A DNA stretch of 57,696 nt. Origin: an uncultured Roseburia sp. Lineage in GTDB: Bacteria; Bacillota; Clostridia; Lachnospirales; Lachnospiraceae. Within the stretch, counting starts at the first letter, position 1. Every line of letters begins with the position of its first letter. Made by a program: the position numbers and the translations under genes. The stretch spans positions 1 through 57,696 of the forward strand of contig CAMUHN010000012.1 of the NCBI GenBank assembly GCA_947088675.1, in the 5' to 3' direction. Below, piece by piece: positions 7,551 to 23,264 of this stretch. Under the pieces are notes generated by a model that was not told the DNA's origin, ran no database searches, and saw nothing but the letters and a program-made list of their open reading frames with translations.

Positions 7551-7769
7551 TCACATAAAAAGAAAGACGGCGGGTTCTCTGTTCCTGCCGTCTTTTTTGA
7601 TTGGGAAAGAATAAATTGTGCAGTTTGTACAAAAAGAATTTGAAAACAGTTCATAAATCCAATAAAACCGCATAAATTATAGCGACAGCATGGTCAAATT
7701 GCACAAAAAAGCAAAAAAACAAAGAAACCACATAAAACCACATATTTTTGGGTTGACAAACCACATAAA
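7551..7769 (+). promoter_or_regulatory. Repeated CCACATAAA operator-like elements
   Basis: The element YCRCATAAA occurs at 7551-7559 (TCACATAAA), 7668-7676 (CCGCATAAA), 7728-7736 and 7761-7769 (both CCACATAAA), plus a partial copy CCACATAT at 7738-7745. All are direct repeats. The last three are spaced 10 and 23 bp apart, near whole helical turns, and flank or lie inside the consensus promoter. This is the layout expected of a repressor site. The likely binder is the DeoR-family protein encoded at the end of the same operon (20559-21329); that link is inference. Confidence 0.6.
7563..7598 (+). terminator. Rho-independent terminator of the kinase-isomerase operon
   Basis: Stem AAAGACGGC (7563-7571) pairs with GCCGTCTTT (7587-7595) around a 15-base loop, followed by a T-run. 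It separates the sugar kinase/isomerase unit from the BMC promoter. Confidence 0.88.
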
Positions 7770-7781
7770 CAAACATATAAT
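7753..7781 (+). promoter_or_regulatory. Perfect sigma-A promoter of the BMC operon
   Basis: TTGACA at 7753-7758, a 17-base spacer, and TATAAT at 7776-7781: both boxes match consensus exactly. Transcription would start near 7788, giving a leader of about 80 nt before the diol dehydratase. One CCACATAAA element lies within the spacer, so bound repressor would block polymerase directly. Such a strong core promoter implies tight repression when the sugar is absent. Confidence 0.88.
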
Positions 7782-7866
7782 ATCTAATATAGGTGTGGAA
7801 TTGTGTTGGGTTTTGGAATTGCTTTTCAGTATGGCACAGATGGACACACAATATTTGGAGGCGCAT

Positions 7867-10392
7867 ATGAAGAAGTATAACAGTGAAAGGATTCCCAAGA
7901 CAGAGCGGATAACAAAGCTGGTCGAGCATCTCTATGCGAAACTGCCGGAGATTGAATCCGCAAGGGCAATCCTGTTGACGGAATCATTTAAACAGACCGA
8001 GAATGAACCGATGATCATTCGCAAGGCGAAAGCGTTTGCCCATATTTTGGAGCAGATCCCGATCATTATACGCGAGGGGGAGCTGATTGTGGGCAGTTCC
8101 ACAATTGCCCCGAGAGGCTGCCAGACGTATCCGGAATTTTCCTATGACTGGATGGAAAAAGAGTTTGATACGGTTGCGACGCGGGAGGCCGATCCCTTTT
8201 ATATTGCGGACCAGACAAAAAGGGAGCTGTTAGAGGCGGATGCGTATTGGAGCGGAAAGACAACAAGCGAACTTGCTACGGCCTATATGGCGCCGGAGAC
8301 GATCAGGGCAATGGAGCACAATATGTTTACGCCGGGCAATTATTTTTATAACGGTGTCGGACATTTTACGGTGCAGTATGAAAAGGTCATTGCGATCGGA
8401 TTTGAAGGCATTATGCAGGAAGTGGAAGAAGCGCTTGCCCGCTGTCAGGTCGGAGACGCGGACTATGCGACAAGAAGCCGGTTTTATGAGGCAGTGTTAA
8501 TCAGCTGCCGTGCGGTGATCGGCTATGCAAACCGGTATGCGCAGCTTGCCGAAAAAGAGGCCGCTGCCTGCAGCGATCCGGTACGCAGGTCGGAACTTTT
8601 ACAGATTGCGAAAAACTGCAGCAGAGTGCCGGCAAAAGGGGCGCAGACGTTCCATGAAGCGTGTCAGAGCTTCTGGTTTGTACAGCAGCTGCTTCAGCTT
8701 GAATCATCCGGACATTCGATTTCGCCGGGACGTTTTGACCAGTATATGTATCCTTATTACAGGAAAGATCTTGATGAAGGCAGGCTGACAAGAGAACAGG
8801 CGCAGGAATACATAGACTGTATCTGGGTAAAATTAAACGATTTGAACAAGTGCCGTGATGCCGAGAGTGCAAAAGGATTTGCGGGCTACAGCCTGTTTCA
8901 GAATCTGATTGTGGGCGGCCAGGATGAGAACGGGCGCGATGTGACGAACGATCTGTCGTTTATGTGTATCGAAGCTTCGTTCCATGTATTTTTGCCGCAG
9001 CCTTCGCTTTCCATCCGTGTCTGGAACGGTTCCCCGCATGATCTTCTGGTGCGTGCGGCGGAGCTGACGAGGACAGGAATCGGGCTTCCGGCCTATTACA
9101 ATGACGAAGTGATTATTCCGTCGCTGATGAGCATGGGGCTGACGCTTGAGGATGCGAGGACATACAATATCATCGGCTGCGTGGAGCCGCAGAAAGCGGG
9201 TAAGACAAACGGATGGCATGACGCCGCATTCTACAATATGTGCAGGCCGTTAGAGCTCGTCTTCCAAAACGGAATCGACTGCGGAGAGCAGATCGGACCG
9301 GCTACCGGCGAAGTTGAGGACATGCAGACGTTTGAGGAATTTTATGACGCCTATAAGACGCAGATGGAATATTTTATTTCGCTGCTTGTCAATGCGGACA
9401 ACGCAATCGATCAGGCACATGCCGAGCGTGCGCCGCTTCCGTTTCTGGCGTGTATGGTGGACGACTGCATCAAACGCGGAAAGACATGCGAACAGGGAGG
9501 CGCCGTTTATAACTTTACGGGTCCGCAGGGATTTGGAATCGCGAATGTCGCCGACTCTCTTTACGCGATAAAAACACTTGTCTATGACGAGAAAAAAGTT
9601 TCCATGGCGGATTACAAAAAGGCATTGACATTCAATTACGGCAAAGAAGTCAACGAACTTGTCGTTGCACAGATTTCCGGAAAAGTAGCAAGGGAATTTG
9701 CAATGAACGGCGTAAAGGCAGATTCCGCAATGGTTGCTTCGGCGACACAGGAGATCTTAAGACAGTCGGTGACAGCCGAGGATCAGAGGAAATTCAAAGA
9801 ACTTCTTGAGCTGATTGAGAACGTGCCGAAATTCGGCAATGACAATGAGATTGTAGATAAGTTTGCAAGAGACGCCGCTTATACTTATACAAAACCGCTG
9901 CTGAAATATTATAACCCGAGAGGCGGGAGATTCCAGGCAGGCCTTTATCCGGTTTCCGCTAACGTACCGCTTGGCGCACAGACAGGCGCGACGCCGGACG
10001 GAAGACTTGCAGGCGTTCCGGTGGCAGACGGCGTTTCGCCGTCCGCAGGCAAGGATGTGCATGGGCCGACCGCAGCTGCAAACTCCGTATCGACGTTAGA
10101 TCACGGGATCGCATCAAACGGCACATTGTTTAACCAGAAATTCCATCCGTCGGCATTAAGCGGCGACGAGGGGCTTGACAATTTTGTGAGCTTAATCCGC
10201 ACATACTTCGATAAAAAGGGAAGCCATATGCAGTTTAACGTAGTATCCAGAGAGACGCTTCTTGATGCGCAGAAACATCCGGAAAATTATAAACATCTTG
10301 TTGTGCGTGTGGCCGGATACAGCGCACTGTTCACAACGCTCTCAAAGAGCCTTCAGGACGATATCATCCGGCGTACCGAGCAGGGCTTCTAA
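7867..10392 (+). CDS. Glycyl radical propane-1,2-diol dehydratase
   Basis: Large glycyl radical enzyme, 841 residues, predicted to convert (S)-1,2-propanediol to propanal without vitamin B12. The thiyl radical Cys438 is in GCVEPQ with Glu440 two residues on. The glycyl radical Gly817 is in the C-terminal RVAGYSALF loop. Diol-dehydratase contact residues are present: His166 (GVGHF), His283-Ser284 (SGHSIS) and Asp452 (GWHDAAF), matching the glycerol/propanediol dehydratase subgroup rather than choline lyase or pyruvate formate-lyase. The ATG at 7867 is chosen for its TTGGAGG site 5 bases upstream; the frame stays open back to 7690, but that part overlaps the promoter. It is the first gene of the BMC operon, followed 9 bp on by its activase. 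No obvious N-terminal encapsulation helix is seen. Oxygen-sensitive enzyme of the compartment lumen. Confidence 0.93.
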   Translation: MKKYNSERIPKTERITKLVEHLYAKLPEIESARAILLTESFKQTENEPMIIRKAKAFAHILEQIPIIIREGELIVGSSTIAPRGCQTYPEFSYDWMEKEFDTVATREADPFYIADQTKRELLEADAYWSGKTTSELATAYMAPETIRAMEHNMFTPGNYFYNGVGHFTVQYEKVIAIGFEGIMQEVEEALARCQVGDADYATRSRFYEAVLISCRAVIGYANRYAQLAEKEAAACSDPVRRSELLQIAKNCSRVPAKGAQTFHEACQSFWFVQQLLQLESSGHSISPGRFDQYMYPYYRKDLDEGRLTREQAQEYIDCIWVKLNDLNKCRDAESAKGFAGYSLFQNLIVGGQDENGRDVTNDLSFMCIEASFHVFLPQPSLSIRVWNGSPHDLLVRAAELTRTGIGLPAYYNDEVIIPSLMSMGLTLEDARTYNIIGCVEPQKAGKTNGWHDAAFYNMCRPLELVFQNGIDCGEQIGPATGEVEDMQTFEEFYDAYKTQMEYFISLLVNADNAIDQAHAERAPLPFLACMVDDCIKRGKTCEQGGAVYNFTGPQGFGIANVADSLYAIKTLVYDEKKVSMADYKKALTFNYGKEVNELVVAQISGKVAREFAMNGVKADSAMVASATQEILRQSVTAEDQRKFKELLELIENVPKFGNDNEIVDKFARDAAYTYTKPLLKYYNPRGGRFQAGLYPVSANVPLGAQTGATPDGRLAGVPVADGVSPSAGKDVHGPTAAANSVSTLDHGIASNGTLFNQKFHPSALSGDEGLDNFVSLIRTYFDKKGSHMQFNVVSRETLLDAQKHPENYKHLVVRVAGYSALFTTLSKSLQDDIIRRTEQGF

Positions 10393-10401
10393 GGAGGCGC
10401 A

Positions 10402-11196
10402 ATGGAGAATATATTGCAGACAAAAGGGCGTATTTTTGACATTCAAAGATATTCCATTCATGACGGCAAGGGAATCCGCACGATTGTGTTTTTAAAGGGA
10501 TGTGTCTTAAGATGCCGCTGGTGCTGCAACCCCGAGTCGCAGGAATTCGGAATACAGACTATGAAAGTGGCCGGGAAACCGAAAGTGATCGGTCGGGACG
10601 TCACTGTGGAAGAAGTGATGGAAGTTGTGGAAAAAGACCGCGGCTATTACCGCAGAAGCGGCGGCGGTCTGACCCTTTCCGGCGGGGAGAGCCTGTGCCA
10701 GCCGGATTTTGCGCAGGCGCTTCTTAAAACGGCAAAATCAATCGGGATCAACACTGCGATGGAAAGCATGGGATGTGCGCCGTATGAAGTGATTGAGCGG
10801 ATTCTGCCATATCTTGACACATATTTGATGGACATAAAACATACGAATATAGCAAAACATAAAGAATTTACGGGACGGGCGAATGATTTGATGCTGGAAA
10901 ACGCAAGAAAGATTGCGGAATCCGGACAAACGAACCTTGTGATACGCGTCCCGGTGATCCCGACCTTTAACGATACGCCGGAGGAGATTGCTGCGATTGC
11001 CAGATTTTCGGACCGGCTGCCCGGCGTCAGGAAGATACATCTTCTGCCATACCACAGGCTCGGGCAGGATAAATACGAGGGACTTTCGAGAGAATATCTG
11101 ATGGGGGACATTCTTCCGCCGGAAAACGAACATATGGCAATGTTAAAGAAAACAGTGGAGAGTGTGTCAGGACTGAAATGTCAGATCGGCGGTTAG
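10402..11196 (+). CDS. Glycyl radical enzyme activating protein (radical SAM)
   Basis: A 264-residue radical SAM enzyme that would generate the glycyl radical on the dehydratase just upstream by abstracting hydrogen with a 5'-deoxyadenosyl radical. The cluster motif CVLRCRWC (CxxxCxxC) lies at about residues 34-41, followed by GGGLTLSGGE for SAM binding and DIKHTN further on. Most activases of dehydratase-type GREs carry an inserted ferredoxin domain with two extra 4Fe-4S motifs after the first cluster. Here the gap is only about 50 residues and has no CxxCxxC set, so this is the short form, like pyruvate formate-lyase activase. An AAGGAGG site precedes the ATG. Confidence 0.92.
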   Translation: MENILQTKGRIFDIQRYSIHDGKGIRTIVFLKGCVLRCRWCCNPESQEFGIQTMKVAGKPKVIGRDVTVEEVMEVVEKDRGYYRRSGGGLTLSGGESLCQPDFAQALLKTAKSIGINTAMESMGCAPYEVIERILPYLDTYLMDIKHTNIAKHKEFTGRANDLMLENARKIAESGQTNLVIRVPVIPTFNDTPEEIAAIARFSDRLPGVRKIHLLPYHRLGQDKYEGLSREYLMGDILPPENEHMAMLKKTVESVSGLKCQIGG

Positions 11197-11239: not shown

Positions 11240-11611
11240 ATGCTGGATTCAAATACACTGGAAAACGGAATGAGAATTATACAGGAGTCGGTGCCGGGGC
11301 GTCAGGTGACGCTGGCGCATATTATTGCGAGTCCGGACAGAACTCTGTACGAAAAACTGGGACTTGACCCCAAAATCGACTACGAGAGAGCTGCAATCGG
11401 CGTGACAACGGTAACGCCGTCGGAGACGGCAATTATTATGGCCGATATTGCGATGAAAGCAAGCGGGATTCATCTTGGATTTGTAGACCGCTTCAGCGGT
11501 TCCCTGATTATCACGGGGACGGTAAGCGAAGTGCAGGCCGCAATAGAAGCCATGCAGGATTATGTGGAAGAAAAGTTAGGTTACACTGTCTGCCCGATTA
11601 CAAAGACATGA
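11240..11611 (+). CDS. pduU: BMC shell protein, EutS/PduU-like (permuted)
   Basis: A 123-residue hexameric shell protein of the circularly permuted EutS/PduU class. Typical features: the N-terminal beta-barrel strand and RQVTLAHIIASPD, then AIGVTTVTPSETAIIMADIA, GFVDRFSGSLIITG and the C-terminal LGYTVCPITKT. The PduU class forms a small barrel capping the hexamer face. The ATG at 11240 is preferred (GGAGAGGG upstream) over an in-frame GTG at 11198 that would add a non-conserved basic tail. Its stop overlaps the next ATG (ATGA). Confidence 0.9.
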   Translation: MLDSNTLENGMRIIQESVPGRQVTLAHIIASPDRTLYEKLGLDPKIDYERAAIGVTTVTPSETAIIMADIAMKASGIHLGFVDRFSGSLIITGTVSEVQAAIEAMQDYVEEKLGYTVCPITKT

Positions 11612-12063
11612 GAAAACTGATTTTAATGGGGCGCAGCGAGGCAGGAAAGACAACGCTGACACAGGCGCTGCGCGGCGAAGAAATTCATTATTACAAGACG
11701 CAGTATGTCAATCATTTTGAGAGCGTGATTGATACGCCGGGAGAGTACGCGCAGAGCCACAGACTTGGAAAAGCTCTTGCGCTCTATACCTACGAAGCTG
11801 ACGTCGTCGGCATCCTGGTTTCGGCGACGGAGCCGTACTCGATTTTTCCGCCGAACGTGACCTGCCAGGCCAATCGGGAATGCATTGGAATTGTAACAAA
11901 AATAGACCTGCCGAACGCCAATATCCCAATGGCAGACAGATGGCTTGAGATTGCAGGCTGTAAGAAGATATTCCATGTCAATTCCTTAGAGGGGGTCGGC
12001 GTCCCCGAAATTTTGGAGTATCTCAGAGAAGATACCGAAAAAACCAAAATAAGTGAGTTATAA
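11608..12063 (+). CDS. EutP/PduV-family GTPase-like protein
   Basis: A 151-residue P-loop protein of the EutP/PduV group found in BMC loci. The P-loop GRSEAGKTT is at residues 8-16, an IDTPGEY switch at about 41-47, and TKIDLP (the NKxD-like base motif) at about 96-101. Salmonella PduV has been tied to compartment movement and associates with the shell; EutP has been reported to act as an acetate kinase. Here it is translationally coupled (ATGA) to the PduU-like gene, which fits a shell-linked role. With no propionate kinase in the window, a small-acid kinase role is also worth keeping open. Confidence 0.85.
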   Translation: MRKLILMGRSEAGKTTLTQALRGEEIHYYKTQYVNHFESVIDTPGEYAQSHRLGKALALYTYEADVVGILVSATEPYSIFPPNVTCQANRECIGIVTKIDLPNANIPMADRWLEIAGCKKIFHVNSLEGVGVPEILEYLREDTEKTKISEL

Positions 12064-12137: not shown

Positions 12138-12986
12138 ATGATTAATGAAATGGAAATTAAGAAACAGATCTGTGAGGTCGGCAAAAGAATTTACAACCGC
12201 AACATGGTAGCGGCAAATGACGGAAATATTTCTGTAAAATTAAACGACCATGAGTTTTTATGCACACCGACAGGCGTGTCCAAAGGTTTCATGACGCCGG
12301 AGTTTATCTGTAAAGTGGACGAGAACGGAAACGTAATCCAGGCAAACAAAGGATTCAAACCGTCTTCTGAGATTAAAATGCATATGCGCGTTTATCAGAA
12401 ACGCCCGGACGTAGGCTCGGTGGTACATGCACATCCGACCTTTGCAACTTCTTTTGCAATTGCCGGTATTCCGCTGACACAGCCGATTATGCCGGAAGCG
12501 GTGATCGCACTTGGATGCGTTCCGATTGCAGAGTACGGCACACCGTCTACAATGGAGATTCCGGACAACCTTGAGAAATACCTGCCGTATTTTGACGCAG
12601 TACTTCTTGAGAGCCACGGCGCGCTGACATGGAGCACAGATCTTCTGGCGGCATATCACAAGATGGAGAGCGTTGAGTTCTATGCAGAGCTTCTTTACAA
12701 ATCCAAAATGCTTGGCGGACCAAAGGAATTTGACACCGCAAACATTAAAAAATTATATGAGATTCGCCGTAAATTCGGTATGCCGGGCAAACATCCTGCA
12801 AATATCTGCTTAAACAAGGGCAAGGAAAACTGCCATAACTGCGGCGGCGGATGCGGAAGCGCAGATTATGCAAATATGCCGGGTTATCAGTACAATTTCG
12901 GCTGCGACTGTGAGAATAGCGGCGGAAGCGTCGACGAGAATGCAATTGCAGAGATTGTGAAAAAAGTGATTTCCGAAATGAGATAA
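12138..12986 (+). CDS. Class II aldolase (rhamnulose/fuculose-1-phosphate type) with encapsulation tail
   Basis: A 282-residue class II (zinc) aldolase of the fuculose-1-phosphate family, predicted to split L-rhamnulose-1-phosphate (or L-fuculose-1-phosphate) into DHAP and L-lactaldehyde. Zinc ligands are visible: His97 and His99 (VHAHPT) and His160 (ESHGAL), with the phosphate loops NDGNIS and TPTGVSKG and Glu78 as likely acid/base. Beyond the ~210-residue catalytic core comes a glycine/cysteine-rich linker (Cys232, 235, 239, 256, 258; NCHNCGGGCG and GCDCEN), then an amphipathic helix DENAIAEIVKKVISEM at 266-281. The helix is a typical encapsulation peptide that directs cargo into a BMC shell. 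The cysteine-rich linker could bind metal or form disulfides and is unusual for aldolases. AAGGAGG precedes the ATG. Confidence 0.93.
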   Translation: MINEMEIKKQICEVGKRIYNRNMVAANDGNISVKLNDHEFLCTPTGVSKGFMTPEFICKVDENGNVIQANKGFKPSSEIKMHMRVYQKRPDVGSVVHAHPTFATSFAIAGIPLTQPIMPEAVIALGCVPIAEYGTPSTMEIPDNLEKYLPYFDAVLLESHGALTWSTDLLAAYHKMESVEFYAELLYKSKMLGGPKEFDTANIKKLYEIRRKFGMPGKHPANICLNKGKENCHNCGGGCGSADYANMPGYQYNFGCDCENSGGSVDENAIAEIVKKVISEMR

Positions 12987-17327: not shown

Positions 17328-17606
17328 ATGGCACAGGAAGCATTGGGAATGGTAGAGACAAGAGGACTTACGGCTGCAATTGAAGCAGCAGATACCATGT
17401 GCAAAGCAGCAAACGTAAATCTGGTAGGAACAGAGAAGATCGGTTCCGGACTTGTTACCGTAATGGTACGCGGCGACGTAGGCGCCGTAAAATCAGCAGT
17501 GGAAGCAGGCGCTGCAAATGCGGAGAGACTCGGCGAACTGGTAGCACAGCATGTAATCCCAAGACCGCACACAGACGTAGAGGGAATACTTCCGAAAATA
17601 AAATAA
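17328..17606 (+). CDS. pduJ: BMC-H shell protein, PduA/PduJ-like (second copy)
   Basis: A 92-residue canonical BMC-H protein nearly identical to the one at 16526 (shared [40 protein letters not shown] and [14 protein letters not shown]). It differs mainly in the second helix ([11 protein letters not shown] against [11 protein letters not shown]) and the C-terminal end. It has its own strong GAAGGAGG site after a 154 bp gap (17174-17327) in which I see no gene. Two such paralogues (PduA/PduJ) are usual in propanediol compartments. Confidence 0.93.
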
Positions 17607-17665: not shown

Positions 17666-18322
17666 GTGAACAGGTTGGAAAAGCATGAAATAGAAGCATT
17701 GACCAGGATCATCTTATCCAGCATTCAAAGCGGAAAAGAAAAGGGGAACGGTTTTCTGGTGCCGGTTGGCGTAAGTAACCGTCATATCCATCTGACGCAG
17801 GAGGATGTGGAGACGTTATTCGGGCCGGGCTATCAGCTGACAAAGAAGAAAGAGCTGATGGGCGGTCAGTTTGCATCCAACGAATGCTGTACGATTGTTG
17901 GTCTGAAATTAAGGGCGATCGAGAATGTCAGAGTCTTAGGGCCTGTCCGTAAAGCGACCCAGGTGGAGATCAGCCAGACAGATGCGAGAAAATTAGGAAT
18001 CAGCGTGCCGGTACGTGAATCCGGCGACACAAAAGAATCCGCGCCGATTGCGATCGTAGGCCCAAAAGGCGCTATATACTGTAAAGAGGGCTGCATTATA
18101 GCGGCAAGACATATCCATATGTCTCCTGCGGACGCGGCAGCCTGCGGTGTAGGCGACGGCGACTATGTCAGCGTAAAAATGGACAACGAGCGCGGGACAA
18201 CATTCGACAAGGTAAAAATCCGCGTAGACGAAAGTTTTACATTGGAAATGCATATCGACACAGATGAGGCAAACGCAAGCGAAATTAAATGCGGCGACCA
18301 TGTGACGATTCTGAAACAATAA
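17666..18322 (+). CDS. pduL: Phosphate propanoyltransferase (PduL)
   Basis: A 218-residue PduL-type phosphotransacylase, converting propanoyl-CoA plus phosphate to propanoyl-phosphate and recycling CoA inside the compartment. It has two PduL domains, each with zinc-binding histidines: SNRHIHL (His40, His42) and ARHIHMSP (His149, His151). The N-terminal helix LEKHEIEALTRIILSSIQ fits an encapsulation peptide. The start is GTG 17666 or TTG 17675; neither has a textbook ribosome site and the three-residue difference does not touch the helix. A matching propionate kinase is not encoded here. Confidence 0.93.
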   Translation: MNRLEKHEIEALTRIILSSIQSGKEKGNGFLVPVGVSNRHIHLTQEDVETLFGPGYQLTKKKELMGGQFASNECCTIVGLKLRAIENVRVLGPVRKATQVEISQTDARKLGISVPVRESGDTKESAPIAIVGPKGAIYCKEGCIIAARHIHMSPADAAACGVGDGDYVSVKMDNERGTTFDKVKIRVDESFTLEMHIDTDEANASEIKCGDHVTILKQ

Positions 18323-18390: not shown

Positions 18391-18657
18391 ATGATTATAG
18401 GAAAAGTAACCGGAAGTATCGTTTCAACCCGCAAACAGGATAACCTGATCGGCAACAAGTTTATGGTGATTGAGCCGATCCACACCATGAATAGTGAGAG
18501 CAGCCAGTTGGTGGCAATTGACAATATCGGGGCAGGCATAGGAGAATATGTTCTGGTGGCACAGGGAAGTGCGGCGCGCATCGGATGCGGGATGCCGGAT
18601 TCACCGATTGATGCTGCTATTGTAGGAATTATTGATGACATTGGAAAGTTGGTGTAA
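18391..18657 (+). CDS. eutN: BMC vertex pentamer protein (EutN/CcmL family)
   Basis: An 88-residue EutN/CcmL/PduN-family protein that forms pentamers capping the twelve shell vertices. Typical blocks: the opening MIIGKVTGSIVSTRKQ, LVAIDNIGAGIGEYVLVAQGSAAR, and the DAAIVGIIDDI end. Only about 60 copies are needed per shell, which may explain the strong hairpin placed before it. GGACAGAA precedes the ATG, a weak ribosome site that also fits low expression. Confidence 0.93.
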   Translation: MIIGKVTGSIVSTRKQDNLIGNKFMVIEPIHTMNSESSQLVAIDNIGAGIGEYVLVAQGSAARIGCGMPDSPIDAAIVGIIDDIGKLV

Positions 18658-19994: not shown

Positions 19995-20543
19995 ATGCAT
20001 ACAGCAATCGGAATGATAGAATTTAAAACAGTGTCGGCAGGTATCACAGCGACAGACCAGATGGTAAAAACCTCCGATGTAGAGATTATCGAAGCGCAGA
20101 CCGTCTGCCCTGGAAAATACATCGCACTGATCAAAGGCGATCTGAGCGCCGTAAATGCAGCCGTAGAGCGCGGAAAGACAACAAGGCCCGATCAGCTGAT
20201 CGACAGTTTTGTACTGGGAAATCCGGATGATTCCATTTTTCCGGCCATCTACGGAACCAGTCAGATAGAAGGCGTTAATGCGCTTGGCATATTAGAAACT
20301 TATGATGCGGCAGCGATTATCGAAGCGGCCGATATCGCCGCAAAGACAGCAATTGTACAGCTGATTGAACTTCGAATTGCAAAAGGCATGTGCGGAAAAT
20401 CCTATATGCTGATTACCGGCGAGGTTGCTGCCTGCGAATCCGCGATCGAAAAAGCAAAAAATTCTGTGGGAGAAAAAGGGATGTTTTTGGATTCTTCCGT
20501 TATTGCGCATCCGGATCCGCAGATTTGCAAAACCATAGTGTAA
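19995..20543 (+). CDS. pduT: Tandem-BMC (BMC-T) shell protein, PduT-like
   Basis: A 182-residue protein with two BMC domains (residues 3-85 and 95-182) that forms pseudo-hexameric trimers. Cys38 in AQTVCPGKY matches the position and context of the cysteine that holds a 4Fe-4S cluster in the central pore of Salmonella PduT. The second domain starts ALGILETYDAAAIIEAAD. Next to the PduS-like gene, it probably forms the electron conduit through the shell. The start is 3 bp after pduS, within GGAGGGGAATC. Confidence 0.92.
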   Translation: MHTAIGMIEFKTVSAGITATDQMVKTSDVEIIEAQTVCPGKYIALIKGDLSAVNAAVERGKTTRPDQLIDSFVLGNPDDSIFPAIYGTSQIEGVNALGILETYDAAAIIEAADIAAKTAIVQLIELRIAKGMCGKSYMLITGEVAACESAIEKAKNSVGEKGMFLDSSVIAHPDPQICKTIV

Positions 20544-20558
20544 AGGGATGGATTTTAT

Positions 20559-21329
20559 ATGCTGGCAGCGGAGAGAAGGACGCTTATTTTAGAAAAACTG
20601 ATTGATGAAAAAAAGGTTGTTGTCAGTGAACTGGGGGAGCTGTTTGGAGTATCGGAAGAAACGATAAGGCGCGATCTCGACAAACTGGGCAAAGAGGGAA
20701 TGGCAATCAAAAGTTATGGCGGCGCCGTTTTAAACGAGAATAATAACATTGACATTCCGTTCAGTGTCCGAAAGAAAAAGAATATGCCCGGAAAACAGAA
20801 GATTGCCTCGCTGATTGCAGGGCTGATTGAGGACGGAGACCATATTATTTTAGATCCGAGCACAACGGCCGTGTCGATTGTGAAATCGCTGCAGGACAAG
20901 GAGCGGCTGACGATTCTCACAAACTCAATCGAAGTACTTGTGGAACTTGCAGACACAAACGGATGGGATATTATTTCTACCGGCGGCACATTAAAGGAAA
21001 ACTATCTTGCGCTGGTAGGTTCCAGGGCAATGGAAGAGATCGCTTCGTATCATGCGGATAAAGTGATATTGTCCTGCAAGGGCATTGACATGCAAAAGGG
21101 CATTACAGATGCAAACGATTTGTTTTCTCAGGTCAAACAGACGATGCTGCACTCGGCAAGAGAAAAAATACTTGCTGTTGACTGTACAAAATTCGGACGC
21201 ATTGCATTTTCCAGGATCTGCCATTTTGATGAGATTGATCTGGTTGTGACTGATGTAAAGCCGTCGGAAGAATGGCTGAAATTTTTTGAGGAAAAGGGAA
21301 TCAGGTGCCTGTATGGAGAAGAAGGTTAA
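20559..21329 (+). CDS. DeoR/GlpR-family transcriptional regulator
   Basis: A 256-residue DeoR-family repressor. The N-terminal winged helix-turn-helix (residues 3-57) contains VVVSELGELFGVSEETIRRDLDKL and the wing IKSYGGAVL. The C-terminal part is a sugar-phosphate-sensing DeoRC domain (DPSTTAVSIVKSL, LTNSIEVLVEL, STGGTLKENYLALVG). Effectors in this family are phosphorylated sugars or intermediates, here plausibly rhamnulose-1-phosphate or DHAP. As the only regulator in the operon it is the best candidate to bind the CCACATAAA repeats before the diol dehydratase. Its last codons overlap the ParA gene start by 17 bp. Confidence 0.92.
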   Translation: MLAAERRTLILEKLIDEKKVVVSELGELFGVSEETIRRDLDKLGKEGMAIKSYGGAVLNENNNIDIPFSVRKKKNMPGKQKIASLIAGLIEDGDHIILDPSTTAVSIVKSLQDKERLTILTNSIEVLVELADTNGWDIISTGGTLKENYLALVGSRAMEEIASYHADKVILSCKGIDMQKGITDANDLFSQVKQTMLHSAREKILAVDCTKFGRIAFSRICHFDEIDLVVTDVKPSEEWLKFFEEKGIRCLYGEEG

Positions 21330-22113
21330 GACAATTGCGTTTGCCAATAACAAGGGCGGAAGCGGGAAGACGACGACCTGTGCAAATATCGGATACTCCC
21401 TCTCGGTTATGGGAAAAAAAGTTCTGCTGATTGACGGCGATATGCAGTTAAATCTTTCCCTGTCGTTTTTTTCGGAGGATGACGTTCTTTCCTTTGCAGC
21501 CGGCGAGAAAAATTTATATGATGCGGTAAAAAATCAGAAAGATCTGAGCGACTATATTTTACATACCGCCTACCCGAATCTTGATCTGGTTCCGTCGTCG
21601 ACACTGATGAGCGGAATCGAATATGAACTTTTTACCAAATGGCAGCGGGAATTTATTCTGAAGAATATTTTAAAGCCTGTGAAAGAATCCGGAATTTATG
21701 ATTATATATTGATAGACGCGCCGCCTACGCTTGGCGGATGGGTAATGAATATACTGTGTGCAGGCGACTTTGTCGTTATGCCGGTGGAGGCAAGCCCATG
21801 GGGGCTGTTTGGCCTTGCAAATATGTTTGAATTTCTGGAGGATGTCAGAAAGATCAACGAATCGCTGCAGCTATTGGGCATTGCGGTTACAAAAGTTGAT
21901 GTCAGGAAGAATTATTATAAACAGACATTGGAGATACTAAAACAGGAAGAAAATGTACATGTATTCGAGCATATGATACGTGTAGACAGCGAGGTGGAAT
22001 GGGCGCAGGACAACAGCAGGCCCATTATGGCGCATAAGAAGAGTGCACGCAGCGCGGGAGAATATATGGAACTTGCAAAGGAGATGGAAGAAAATGTCCG
22101 TAGGATCGGGTAG
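21313..22113 (+). CDS. ParA/MinD-family ATPase, candidate BMC positioning protein (McdA-like)
   Basis: A 266-residue ParA-type ATPase. The deviant Walker A NKGGSGKTT at residues 13-21 carries both the signature Lys14 and Lys19, followed by LLIDGDMQLNLS (Walker A', Asp38/Asp40) and YILIDAPPTLG (Walker B). It lacks the N-terminal helix-turn-helix of plasmid ParA, so it is the small ParA/Soj class that binds nucleoid DNA non-specifically as an ATP dimer. There is no parB, no parS-like sequence and no replication or flagellar gene nearby. It starts inside the DeoR gene and overlaps the next gene by 20 bp, so it belongs to the BMC transcription unit. By analogy with McdA of carboxysomes, I infer that it distributes this compartment over the nucleoid. 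ATPase assignment sure; role inferred. The start at 21313 is chosen because conservation begins there. Confidence 0.85.
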   Translation: MEKKVKTIAFANNKGGSGKTTTCANIGYSLSVMGKKVLLIDGDMQLNLSLSFFSEDDVLSFAAGEKNLYDAVKNQKDLSDYILHTAYPNLDLVPSSTLMSGIEYELFTKWQREFILKNILKPVKESGIYDYILIDAPPTLGGWVMNILCAGDFVVMPVEASPWGLFGLANMFEFLEDVRKINESLQLLGIAVTKVDVRKNYYKQTLEILKQEENVHVFEHMIRVDSEVEWAQDNSRPIMAHKKSARSAGEYMELAKEMEENVRRIG

Positions 22114-22519
22114 TATTAAAAGAGCGGCAAAAAAGGCAGCGGATTCCGCCGCAGAGACAGGGCAGGTTTTAGAGGAAGCGGCAGTGGAAGAGACAGTCAA
22201 AGAGGCAGAGACAGCAGAGAGCGGCAGTATAAAGTCGACCAGATCTGCTTCCGCGAAGACGTCAAAAACCACAGGAAAGAAAAAAACGTCGGCCAAATCG
22301 TCGACAAAAGAAGATAAAAAATCTTCCGATGTTCCGTTAGACGAAGAACCCAAAGAAGCATCTGCGAAAAACGGGAAAACTGTGACCGGTATATCGTCAA
22401 AGGAGACAGAGAGAGCCATCCCGACAGAGGAGGGAAAGCGGTTTATGGCTGACGAAGTGGCGAGGAGTACAAACGAGTCGTGCCAGCTGACACAGGAGAT
22501 GCCTGTTTATCTGTTATAG
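22094..22519 (+). CDS. Low-complexity charged protein, candidate adaptor (McdB-like)
   Basis: A 141-residue protein of extreme composition: Ala, Lys, Glu, Ser and Thr dominate, few hydrophobics, almost no aromatics until the C-terminus. Residues 1-50 (IKRAAKKAADSAAE, LEEAAVEETVKEAE) may form a charged helix. Residues 50-110 (KTSKTTGKKKTSAKSS...) look disordered. The last 12 residues, CQLTQEMPVYLL, are suddenly hydrophobic and resemble a short binding motif. McdB partners of McdA are likewise small, largely disordered proteins that link the ATPase to the shell, though they vary so much that sequence homology is not expected. The 20-bp overlap with the ATPase gene implies a pair. GGAGATGG precedes the ATG at 22094. 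Function inferred from context only. Confidence 0.7.
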   Translation: MSVGSGSIKRAAKKAADSAAETGQVLEEAAVEETVKEAETAESGSIKSTRSASAKTSKTTGKKKTSAKSSTKEDKKSSDVPLDEEPKEASAKNGKTVTGISSKETERAIPTEEGKRFMADEVARSTNESCQLTQEMPVYLL

Positions 22520-22564
22520 AGGATGCGATAAAAACAATAACAGAGCAGGGAAGCGATACAAGAT

Positions 22565-22593
22565 AAAAAAATCCGGCAATGCCGGATTTTTTT
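22565..22593 (+). terminator. Terminator of the BMC operon
   Basis: AAAAAATCCGGC (22565-22576) pairs with GCCGGATTTTTT (22580-22591) around AAT, followed by further T. It ends the unit that began at 7753, placing the ParA-like and charged-protein genes inside it. Confidence 0.92.
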
Positions 22594-22607
22594 ATAATTC
22601 TTTCCTG

Positions 22608-22636
22608 TTGCGAATCGGTCCAAAATGATTTACAAT
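22608..22636 (+). promoter_or_regulatory. Sigma-A promoter for the histidine phosphatase operon
   Basis: TTGCGA (22608-22613), a 17-base spacer, TACAAT (22631-22636). It lies right after the BMC terminator and about 50 bp before the phosphatase start. Confidence 0.65.
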
Positions 22637-22688
22637 ACGGATAACACATCCGGCAGGTAATCGTTGAACCCGAAAGGAGAGCAGGAAA

Positions 22689-23264
22689 ATGGGATTTTTG
22701 TATTTTGTACGTCATGGCCAGACGATCTGGAATGTAGAAAATAAAATATGCGGTTCCACTGATATTGCGCTGACGCCGCTGGGATATCAGCAGGCGGCGG
22801 AAACAGGAAAGAAACTGGCAGAACTTGGAATTAAGGCGGACGAGATCCTGTATTCCCCGCTTGTGCGGGCGGCCTGCACAGCGCGTGAAATTGCCGCAAT
22901 TACCGGGATACCTGCGCGTATGGAAGCGCGTTTAACCGAGCAGAATTTTGGAAAATTTGAGTCGACCGCGCGGGACGGGCTTGAATTTCAACAGGCAAAG
23001 CGGGAATTTGCATTGCGCTATGACGGCGGGGAATCTATGTTAAGGCTGGCGCAGCGCATCTATAATCTGCTGGATGAACTGAAAGAAACTGCGGACAGAA
23101 AGAATTATATCCTGGTGGCGCACAATGGGATTGCGCGTGTTGTTCACTCTTATTTTTATGAAATGACAAATCAGGAATATGCGGAATTTGGAATTGATAA
23201 TTGTGCCATACTAACGTATGAGTTTGACAGGCAGACACAGGAAAGAAAAGGAGAATTATGGTAA
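22689..23264 (+). CDS. Histidine phosphatase family protein
   Basis: A 191-residue phosphoglycerate-mutase-like histidine phosphatase. The phospho-acceptor motif RHGQT is at residues 8-12, the second arginine/glutamate region LYSPLVRAACTAREIA in the middle, and the late catalytic histidine in VAHNGIARV. The family covers phosphoglycerate mutases, cobalamin-pathway phosphatases and broad phosphomonoesterases; the substrate cannot be named. GGAGAG precedes the ATG. It overlaps the DegV gene by 7 bp, and the two probably share the promoter at 22608. Confidence 0.85.
   Translation: MGFLYFVRHGQTIWNVENKICGSTDIALTPLGYQQAAETGKKLAELGIKADEILYSPLVRAACTAREIAAITGIPARMEARLTEQNFGKFESTARDGLEFQQAKREFALRYDGGESMLRLAQRIYNLLDELKETADRKNYILVAHNGIARVVHSYFYEMTNQEYAEFGIDNCAILTYEFDRQTQERKGELW

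Follow-up and report, generated by a model that had tools for sequence, protein, structure and literature searches.

Among the closest described counterparts of the system considered here are the McdA/McdB pairs of carboxysomes, in particular alpha-McdAB from Halothiobacillus neapolitanus (Hn). In Hn McdB, residue W94, third from the end, is required for carboxysome association (PMC11321042; this paper, as well as PMC12204374, PMC10241942, PMC4207490, PMC6325248 and PMC12108088, is cited from excerpts). The first 20 residues of alpha-McdB are enough for McdA binding in the two-hybrid assay (PMC12204374, a preprint), and N-terminal charged partner peptides have been generalised in PMC10241942. 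McdA/McdB-like pairs in operons of microcompartments (BMCs) have already been proposed (PMC8262871), McdB-like proteins that carry Tyr or Phe among their five C-terminal residues have been described at PDU and GRM loci (PMC11321042), and ParA is listed among the ancillary genes of BMC loci in PMC4207490; the main text of the BMC catalogue PMC8217296 does not mention ParA. The distribution of catabolic BMCs in cells was called unclear in a 2021 review (PMC8262871). A partial literature search, covering titles and the openings of abstracts, revealed no positioning system that had been tested for a GRM BMC, no McdB-like proteins bearing ParB_N and no shell protein with an adaptor motif in its tail.

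The window operon and its ATPase-adaptor pair

The window, i.e. the whole analysed stretch of 57,696 nucleotides from an uncultured Roseburia sp., contains an operon with all genes in a single orientation, encoding a glycyl-radical enzyme (GRE) with its activase, a PduV/EutP GTPase, a class II aldolase, aldehyde and alcohol dehydrogenases, a PduS-like protein, a PduL-type enzyme, BMC shell proteins, a pentamer protein and a DeoR regulator, as well as the pair that is the subject of this analysis:

7753..7781, + strand: sigma-70-type promoter match (12/12, TTGACA-17-TATAAT) ahead of the BMC operon
7831..10392, + strand: glycyl-radical enzyme, 1,2-propanediol dehydratase type by operon context (PF02901 and PF01228, scanned from 7822; start codon assumed, ATG at 7831 or 7840)
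10402..11196, + strand: radical-SAM activating enzyme
11240..11611, + strand: BMC-domain shell protein, first of five single-domain genes (start codon assumed)
11608..12063, + strand: PduV/EutP-like GTPase (PF10662)
12138..12986, + strand: class II aldolase, marker of GRM5 loci (PF00596; PMC6325248)
16192..17173, + strand: three BMC-domain shell genes
17328..17606, + strand: BMC-H shell gene, whose homologue is tailed in the adaptor-less clade described below; no tail here (upstream in-frame stops)
17666..18322, + strand: PduL-type phosphate propanoyltransferase (PF06130)
18391..18657, + strand: EutN/CcmL-type pentamer (BMC vertex) protein
19995..20543, + strand: tandem BMC-domain shell protein (two PF00936 matches)
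20559..21329, + strand: DeoR-family regulator, overlapping the ATPase gene
21313..22113, + strand: ParA-type (McdA-like) ATPase, 266 aa, ATG to stop, with the signature-lysine Walker A motif NNKGGSGKTT (Pfam AAA_31, 2.9e-53)
22094..22519, + strand: McdB-like adaptor, 141 aa, ATG to stop, with a low-complexity middle, ending in CQLTQEMPVYLL
22094..22129, + strand: N-terminal motif of the adaptor, MSVGSGSIKRAA, a proposed ParA-activating peptide by analogy with PMC12204374 and PMC10241942
22493..22516, + strand: C-terminal motif of the adaptor, QEMPVYLL, a proposed BMC-binding peptide
22563..22595, + strand: intrinsic terminator-like hairpin (15 pairs and a T-run) 3' of the adaptor gene

The operon is a GRM5-type (fucose/rhamnose, glycyl-radical) BMC locus and shows every feature by which this type has been defined (PMC4207490, PMC6325248). 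All 7 PF00936 matches of the window genome fall on the window contig. The PduV/EutP-like GTPase has itself been suggested as a BMC positioning factor (PMC8262871), so two candidate positioning factors are encoded within one operon.

The pair had been singled out in a sequence-only reading as a McdA/McdB-like system at the end of the operon, with overlaps that agree with the coordinates found here: the ATPase gene shares 17 bp with the DeoR gene and 20 bp (22094-22113) with the 141-residue adaptor frame. Its claim that the pair lies between the promoter at 7753 and a terminator is likewise borne out by the 12/12 match and by the hairpin with its T-run, and an internal promoter is not indicated by the 5 promoter-like sites in 20400-22800, compared with 3.4 in shuffled sequences. 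The absence of ParB near the pair agrees with the single ParB_N match of the genome, which is on another contig (C25:32034), beside a ParA paralogue (C25:31151) that is 31% identical to the window ATPase; thus, the pair in the window is distinct from that partition locus. The suggestion that such a pair would extend positioning to a glycyl-radical BMC holds as far as the presence of the pair is concerned, but the idea had already appeared in print (PMC8262871, PMC11321042).

The AlphaFold2 model of the window ATPase is of good quality (mean pLDDT 85.6), and both the ParA fold and the deviant Walker A motif are present. The Foldseek analysis identified Soj and ParA as the closest solved folds, with McdA (6non) at rank 12 (TM 0.77), and the sequence search of the PDB gave a ParA as the best match (7.6e-30), together with Soj (9.8e-28) and McdA (5.1e-17). 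The window ATPase is therefore nearer to Soj/ParA than to McdA in both sequence and fold; we regard it as McdA-like in action, by its genomic context, and do not claim orthology with McdA. A plasmid origin was considered and rejected, as the best relatives among 5000 records of the plasmid collection are just 45% and 39% identical to it.

The adaptor exhibits no Pfam domain above the cut-off, hence neither ParB_N nor a DNA-binding HTH. Alignment of 32 adaptors revealed four invariant residues, G4, S7, R10 and P137. The only tyrosine of the window protein, Y139, is third from its C-terminus, and tryptophan is absent. The C-terminus is a putative shell-binding peptide, and the adaptor would bind both its BMC and its ATPase.

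We read the pair as a distribution system for the metabolosome, working like McdAB, and estimate the probability of this reading at roughly 80%. As in other members of the family, ATP-bound ParA dimers would coat the nucleoid, and the C-terminal PxYLL peptide would hold the adaptor on the surface of the BMC shell. The N-terminal VGxxSIxRA peptide would dock onto the ParA dimer, by analogy with alpha-McdB, leading to ATP hydrolysis and release, with the low-complexity middle probably serving as a tether. The BMC would chase its own ParA depletion zone, so that BMCs would be spread and split between the daughter cells. Of this scheme, the analysis establishes the gene pair and the conserved ends of the adaptor; positioning in cells is inferred.

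Recurrence of the pair and its dependence on BMC genes

A scan of one genome per species identified 190 relatives of the window ATPase, of which the best 80, 67-95% identical to it, were kept. In 64 of these 80 loci an ORF of the adaptor design is located directly 3' of the ParA gene, which is more than chance. The design comprises a M[SAP]VGxxSIxRA-like start and a (L/M)PxYLL-like end, joined by a K/A/E/T-rich middle that varies in length; the C-terminal pattern, composed after the downstream ORFs of the loci had been read, matched just one further ORF across the 80 loci. The remaining 16 loci consist of L019, at a contig edge, and 15 with an AraC-type gene after ParA. Among 77 adaptor entries with the same end design (the window and 76 others, taken from the loci and from later-fetched ones, with a few genomes represented twice, e.g. 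L034 and L094), the length ranges from 61 to 232 residues, and the third-last position is occupied by Tyr in 55, His in 13, Trp in 5 and Phe in 4, where the pattern permitted only Y, H, W, F or L.

BMC shell genes were found within the fetched flanks, some of them short, in 30 of the 80 loci; 28 of these show the window order (shell genes, DeoR, ParA) and two (L062 and L082) have a EutP-like gene before ParA. On the ParA tree the presence of shell genes in the flanks changes 7 times, 2 of these changes being forced by well-supported branches of a bootstrap that had not settled. The C-terminal motif is common to pairs near to and far from BMCs, and is thus not tied to one neighbouring shell gene.

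Could the ATPase and adaptor instead act with the neighbouring DeoR or AraC regulator in controlling operon transcription? The gene overlap with DeoR in the window and the AraC-type gene in 15 of the 80 loci would fit; against this, no regulator neighbour is common to all contexts, and the conserved ends of the adaptor suit a bridging protein, which makes a role in transcription extremely unlikely.

The dependence of the pair on BMCs was analysed in a family sample of 250 genomes, about one per genus and at least 90% complete save for the window's own (87.6%), with an E-value cut-off of <= 1e-50 for the ATPase subfamily and PF00936 as the BMC marker. The ATPase was found in 29 and PF00936 in 75 of the 250 genomes; PF00936 is present in all 29 ParA-positive genomes, compared with 46 of the 221 ParA-negative ones (Fisher p = 7e-18, uncorrected for ancestry). 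One of the 29, G083, has a single weaker PF00936 match and no shell place listed. A class-wide draw of 293 genomes revealed two further ParA-positive genomes, both with BMC genes.

With GRM5-type loci recognised by the marker aldolase at E <= 1e-120, a cut picked after the scores had been seen, 49 genomes were retrieved, of which 46 are BMC-positive; G166, G236 and G293 have an aldolase at this level yet no PF00936 match. Addition of G146, with a weaker aldolase match inside its BMC locus, gave 47 GRM5-type genomes. ParA occurs in 27 of these 47, in 2 of the 28 other BMC-positive genomes and in none of the 175 BMC-negative ones (relatedness uncorrected). Among the matches listed, and on draft contigs, the distance from ParA to a shell gene is within ~20 kb in 11 of the 29 genomes and ~29-86 kb in 3; in the other 15 the ParA gene is farther off, on another contig, or without a listed shell place. 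The link is thus not solely one of operon position. Of 50 genomes without a shell gene in the fetched flanks of ParA, 49 have PF00936 elsewhere. The exception to co-occurrence is G007 (locus L042), in which ParA and the adaptor look intact and neither PF00936 nor PF03319 was matched, due either to an incomplete assembly or to another cargo. The analysis shows a one-way genomic dependence of this ParA on BMCs, unlinked cases included.

The reverse does not hold: the ATPase is absent from 20 of the 47 GRM5-type genomes, including G295, the only genome of the same genus in the sample, in which DeoR is the last gene of the GRM5 locus and a carbamoyltransferase gene comes next. The pair is therefore dispensable, useful rather than essential for the BMC. 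In L096 (G115:C13) the nearby BMC cluster, ~6-7 kb away from the pair, is of another type, with a 68% shell match and weak matches to aldehyde dehydrogenase and EutP, hence the family may serve other BMCs too.

These results bear on several claims of the sequence-only reading. An McdA/McdB-like BMC pair is supported by recurrence beside GRM5-type loci in many genera, and the proposed co-occurrence was found, the ATPase being confined to BMC-bearing genomes in the even family sample (29/29). As to homologues placed mainly beside partition genes, which would have spoken against the idea, no second partition gene was recognised beside the pairs, the neighbours of unlinked pairs having been clustered and partly annotated. 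The description of the pair as 'dedicated' and located at the operon end fits the window arrangement; elsewhere the pair is often at another place in the genome, and many GRM5-type genomes lack it.

Or perhaps the pair positions another cargo, such as a chromosome site or a plasmid, with the co-occurrence brought about by gut ecology or common descent? The 15 ParA genes near which no shell gene was found among the matches listed, genome G007, and the ParB_N domain of seven adaptors (see below) are points in its favour. We nevertheless regard it as very improbable in view of the 29/29 BMC-positive genomes against a 30% background, the repeated placement of the pair inside or beside BMC operons, the separate ParA-ParB pair in the window genome and the window adaptor being without any Pfam domain. 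BMC distribution remains our preferred reading, although G007, the 20 GRM5-type genomes lacking the ATPase, the 15 loci without a recognisable adaptor gene (see below), an ATPase nearer to Soj/ParA than to McdA and an end motif common to pairs near to and far from BMCs all count against it.

ParB-domain adaptors and shell-protein tails

In 7 of the 80 loci the adaptor has the same ends but contains a ParB_N domain in the middle of the protein, the Pfam model being matched in all seven; the other three adaptors in the first Pfam scan, including that of the window, gave no ParB_N match. The seven account for three changes on the ATPase tree. The Foldseek analysis of the model of one of them (L066) identified ParB-like folds as the best matches, with PadC first (6ryk, E 2.3e-8), for a model with mean pLDDT 65 that is well predicted only at about residues 50-140. 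In the 45% and 39% identical relatives from the plasmid collection, the best among the matches listed, the gene after ParA encodes a protein with ParB_N and HTH_ParB (Pfam) in one case and is annotated as ParB in the other. Because some members retain the ParB N-terminal domain, the adaptor family most likely arose by loss of the DNA-binding part of a ParB; in the simple reading, evolution would have run from ParA-ParB to ParA-adaptor. The ParB_N-type pairs L033, L039 and L044, from several Clostridia MAGs, adjoin RnfC/RnfD-like genes (weak PduS match, shared cluster; names by reading).

The 15 loci with an AraC-type gene among the 80 have ParA without a recognisable adaptor gene and form one clade (support 99/91) of Mediterraneibacter, Faecalicatena and Tyzzerella members; two of the AraC-type genes of this clade were scanned with Pfam. 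In a quick tree three more genomes join the clade (20/20 rows monophyletic), among them L101, which has no AraC gene beside ParA. No adaptor was identified in the clade by the motif search of the locus ORFs or by the profile search of 11 clade genomes. In a control, the profile recovered 11 of 12 genomes whose adaptors lie outside it (G131 was missed), so a diverged adaptor may be present in the clade; another control, in which three genomes were found, was biased, as their adaptors are rows of the profile.

In the clade homologue of the BMC-H gene at 17328, the protein is preceded by an N-terminal tail, 46-91 residues long; AGGAGG is located ahead of the tail start and a second site, AAGGAGG, just ahead of the usual start. 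The tail was found in 12 of the 13 clade loci examined; L129 did not match the search pattern. TAKxPxKxxxRV is present in every one of the 12 tails, and all 12 contain [STA][ILVM]xR[AV], compared with 0 of 22 tails elsewhere (0/8 at loci with unlinked pairs, 0/14 at GRM5 loci without ParA), the latter pattern having been written after the clade tails were seen. As the clade is monophyletic, the shared motif counts as one event and not twelve. The block resembles the adaptor motif KxSIxRA/V; the shell protein of the clade may have taken over the role of the adaptor, as judged from a short, post hoc motif in this one event.

Tails were also found where the pair is unlinked, in 8 of 12 loci (two of these 8 short tails, L135 and L141, may be chance upstream frames), and in 14 of 20 GRM5 loci without ParA; none longer than 15 residues was found in the 16 linked loci examined. 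The idea that the tails are everywhere an adaptor fused to the shell was rejected, given the 14 loci without ParA and the restriction of the motif to the clade. Because many tails occur without ParA, they very likely also have a ParA-independent function; in PduB, an N-terminal extension joins shell and core (PMC12108088). Many GRM5 loci (L102:5582-6118, L104:19344-19865, L128, L150, L163 and others) encode a BMC-H with a low-complexity N-terminal tail of 27-113 residues, and an AAGGAGG-like site inside the frame precedes the usual start codon, so that the shell protein is apparently a dual-start one.

The low-complexity tails of GRM5 shell proteins, found even without this ParA, bring to mind another possibility: the adaptor might be mainly a scaffold for BMC assembly or condensates, and the ATPase might govern assembly, number or size instead of position on the nucleoid. 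The K/A/E-rich, low-complexity middle of the adaptor and the formation of condensates by McdB proteins (PMC11321042) are in keeping with this, but the resemblance of the N-terminal motif to ParA-partner peptides and the ParB_N domain in seven adaptors argue for ParA partnering, and we consider a mainly scaffolding role unlikely. For the distribution system that we favour, it is tempting, though somewhat less than an even bet, to propose a positioning family of traceable origin with three designs: an adaptor that keeps ParB_N; a stripped adaptor with two short end motifs joined by a low-complexity tether, as in the window; and a third design without an adaptor gene, in the Mediterraneibacter/Faecalicatena/Tyzzerella clade, where the ParA-binding motif would have moved to the N-terminal tail of the dual-start BMC-H, so that the shell itself would drive the ATPase.

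Significance and comparison with known systems

The pair is a variant of a kind already proposed; what the analysis adds is the genome-wide dependence, the relatives with a ParB domain and the possible shell-borne adaptor. In gut Lachnospiraceae, the occurrence of the pair in genomes depends tightly on BMCs, for the most part of a single type, and its short conserved end motifs lend themselves to mutation residue by residue. If the reading of the shell tail is true, cargo and adaptor are merged in the clade. This would directly reveal the part of the shell that contacts the ATPase, and would offer a simple means of steering engineered compartments.

The pair resembles alpha-McdAB of the H. neapolitanus carboxysome in the combination of a ParA-type ATPase and a small disordered adaptor beside BMC genes, in the N-terminal adaptor segment with basic residues, and in the aromatic residue third from the C-terminus (W94 in Hn McdB, Y139 here; PMC11321042). 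It differs in the cargo, a GRM metabolosome and not a carboxysome, and in the end motif, LPxYLL here versus R(V/I)WPD there. Carboxysomal McdB proteins possess an invariant tryptophan in the C-terminal region, which the window adaptor lacks, and the window ATPase scores closer to Soj/ParA than to the solved cyanobacterial McdA. With the McdB-like proteins described at PDU/GRM loci (MacCready and Vecchiarelli 2021; Basalla 2024), it shares the GRM locus and a Tyr/Phe within the last five residues (Y139 of 141 here), but the excerpts of these reports name no Lachnospiraceae pair, unlinked pairs, ParB_N domain or shell-protein tail. The relationship to ParABS is apparent from the ATPase fold, with Soj and ParA as top Foldseek matches, and from ParB_N in the adaptors of 7 of 80 loci, whereas the window adaptor has no DNA-binding domain and the ParB_N protein of the genome is encoded on another contig. 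Among ParB-domain adaptors, PadC is the best Foldseek match of the ParB_N-type adaptor L066, whose model is weak outside about residues 50-140; the adaptor of the window differs from PadC by the absence of ParB_N.
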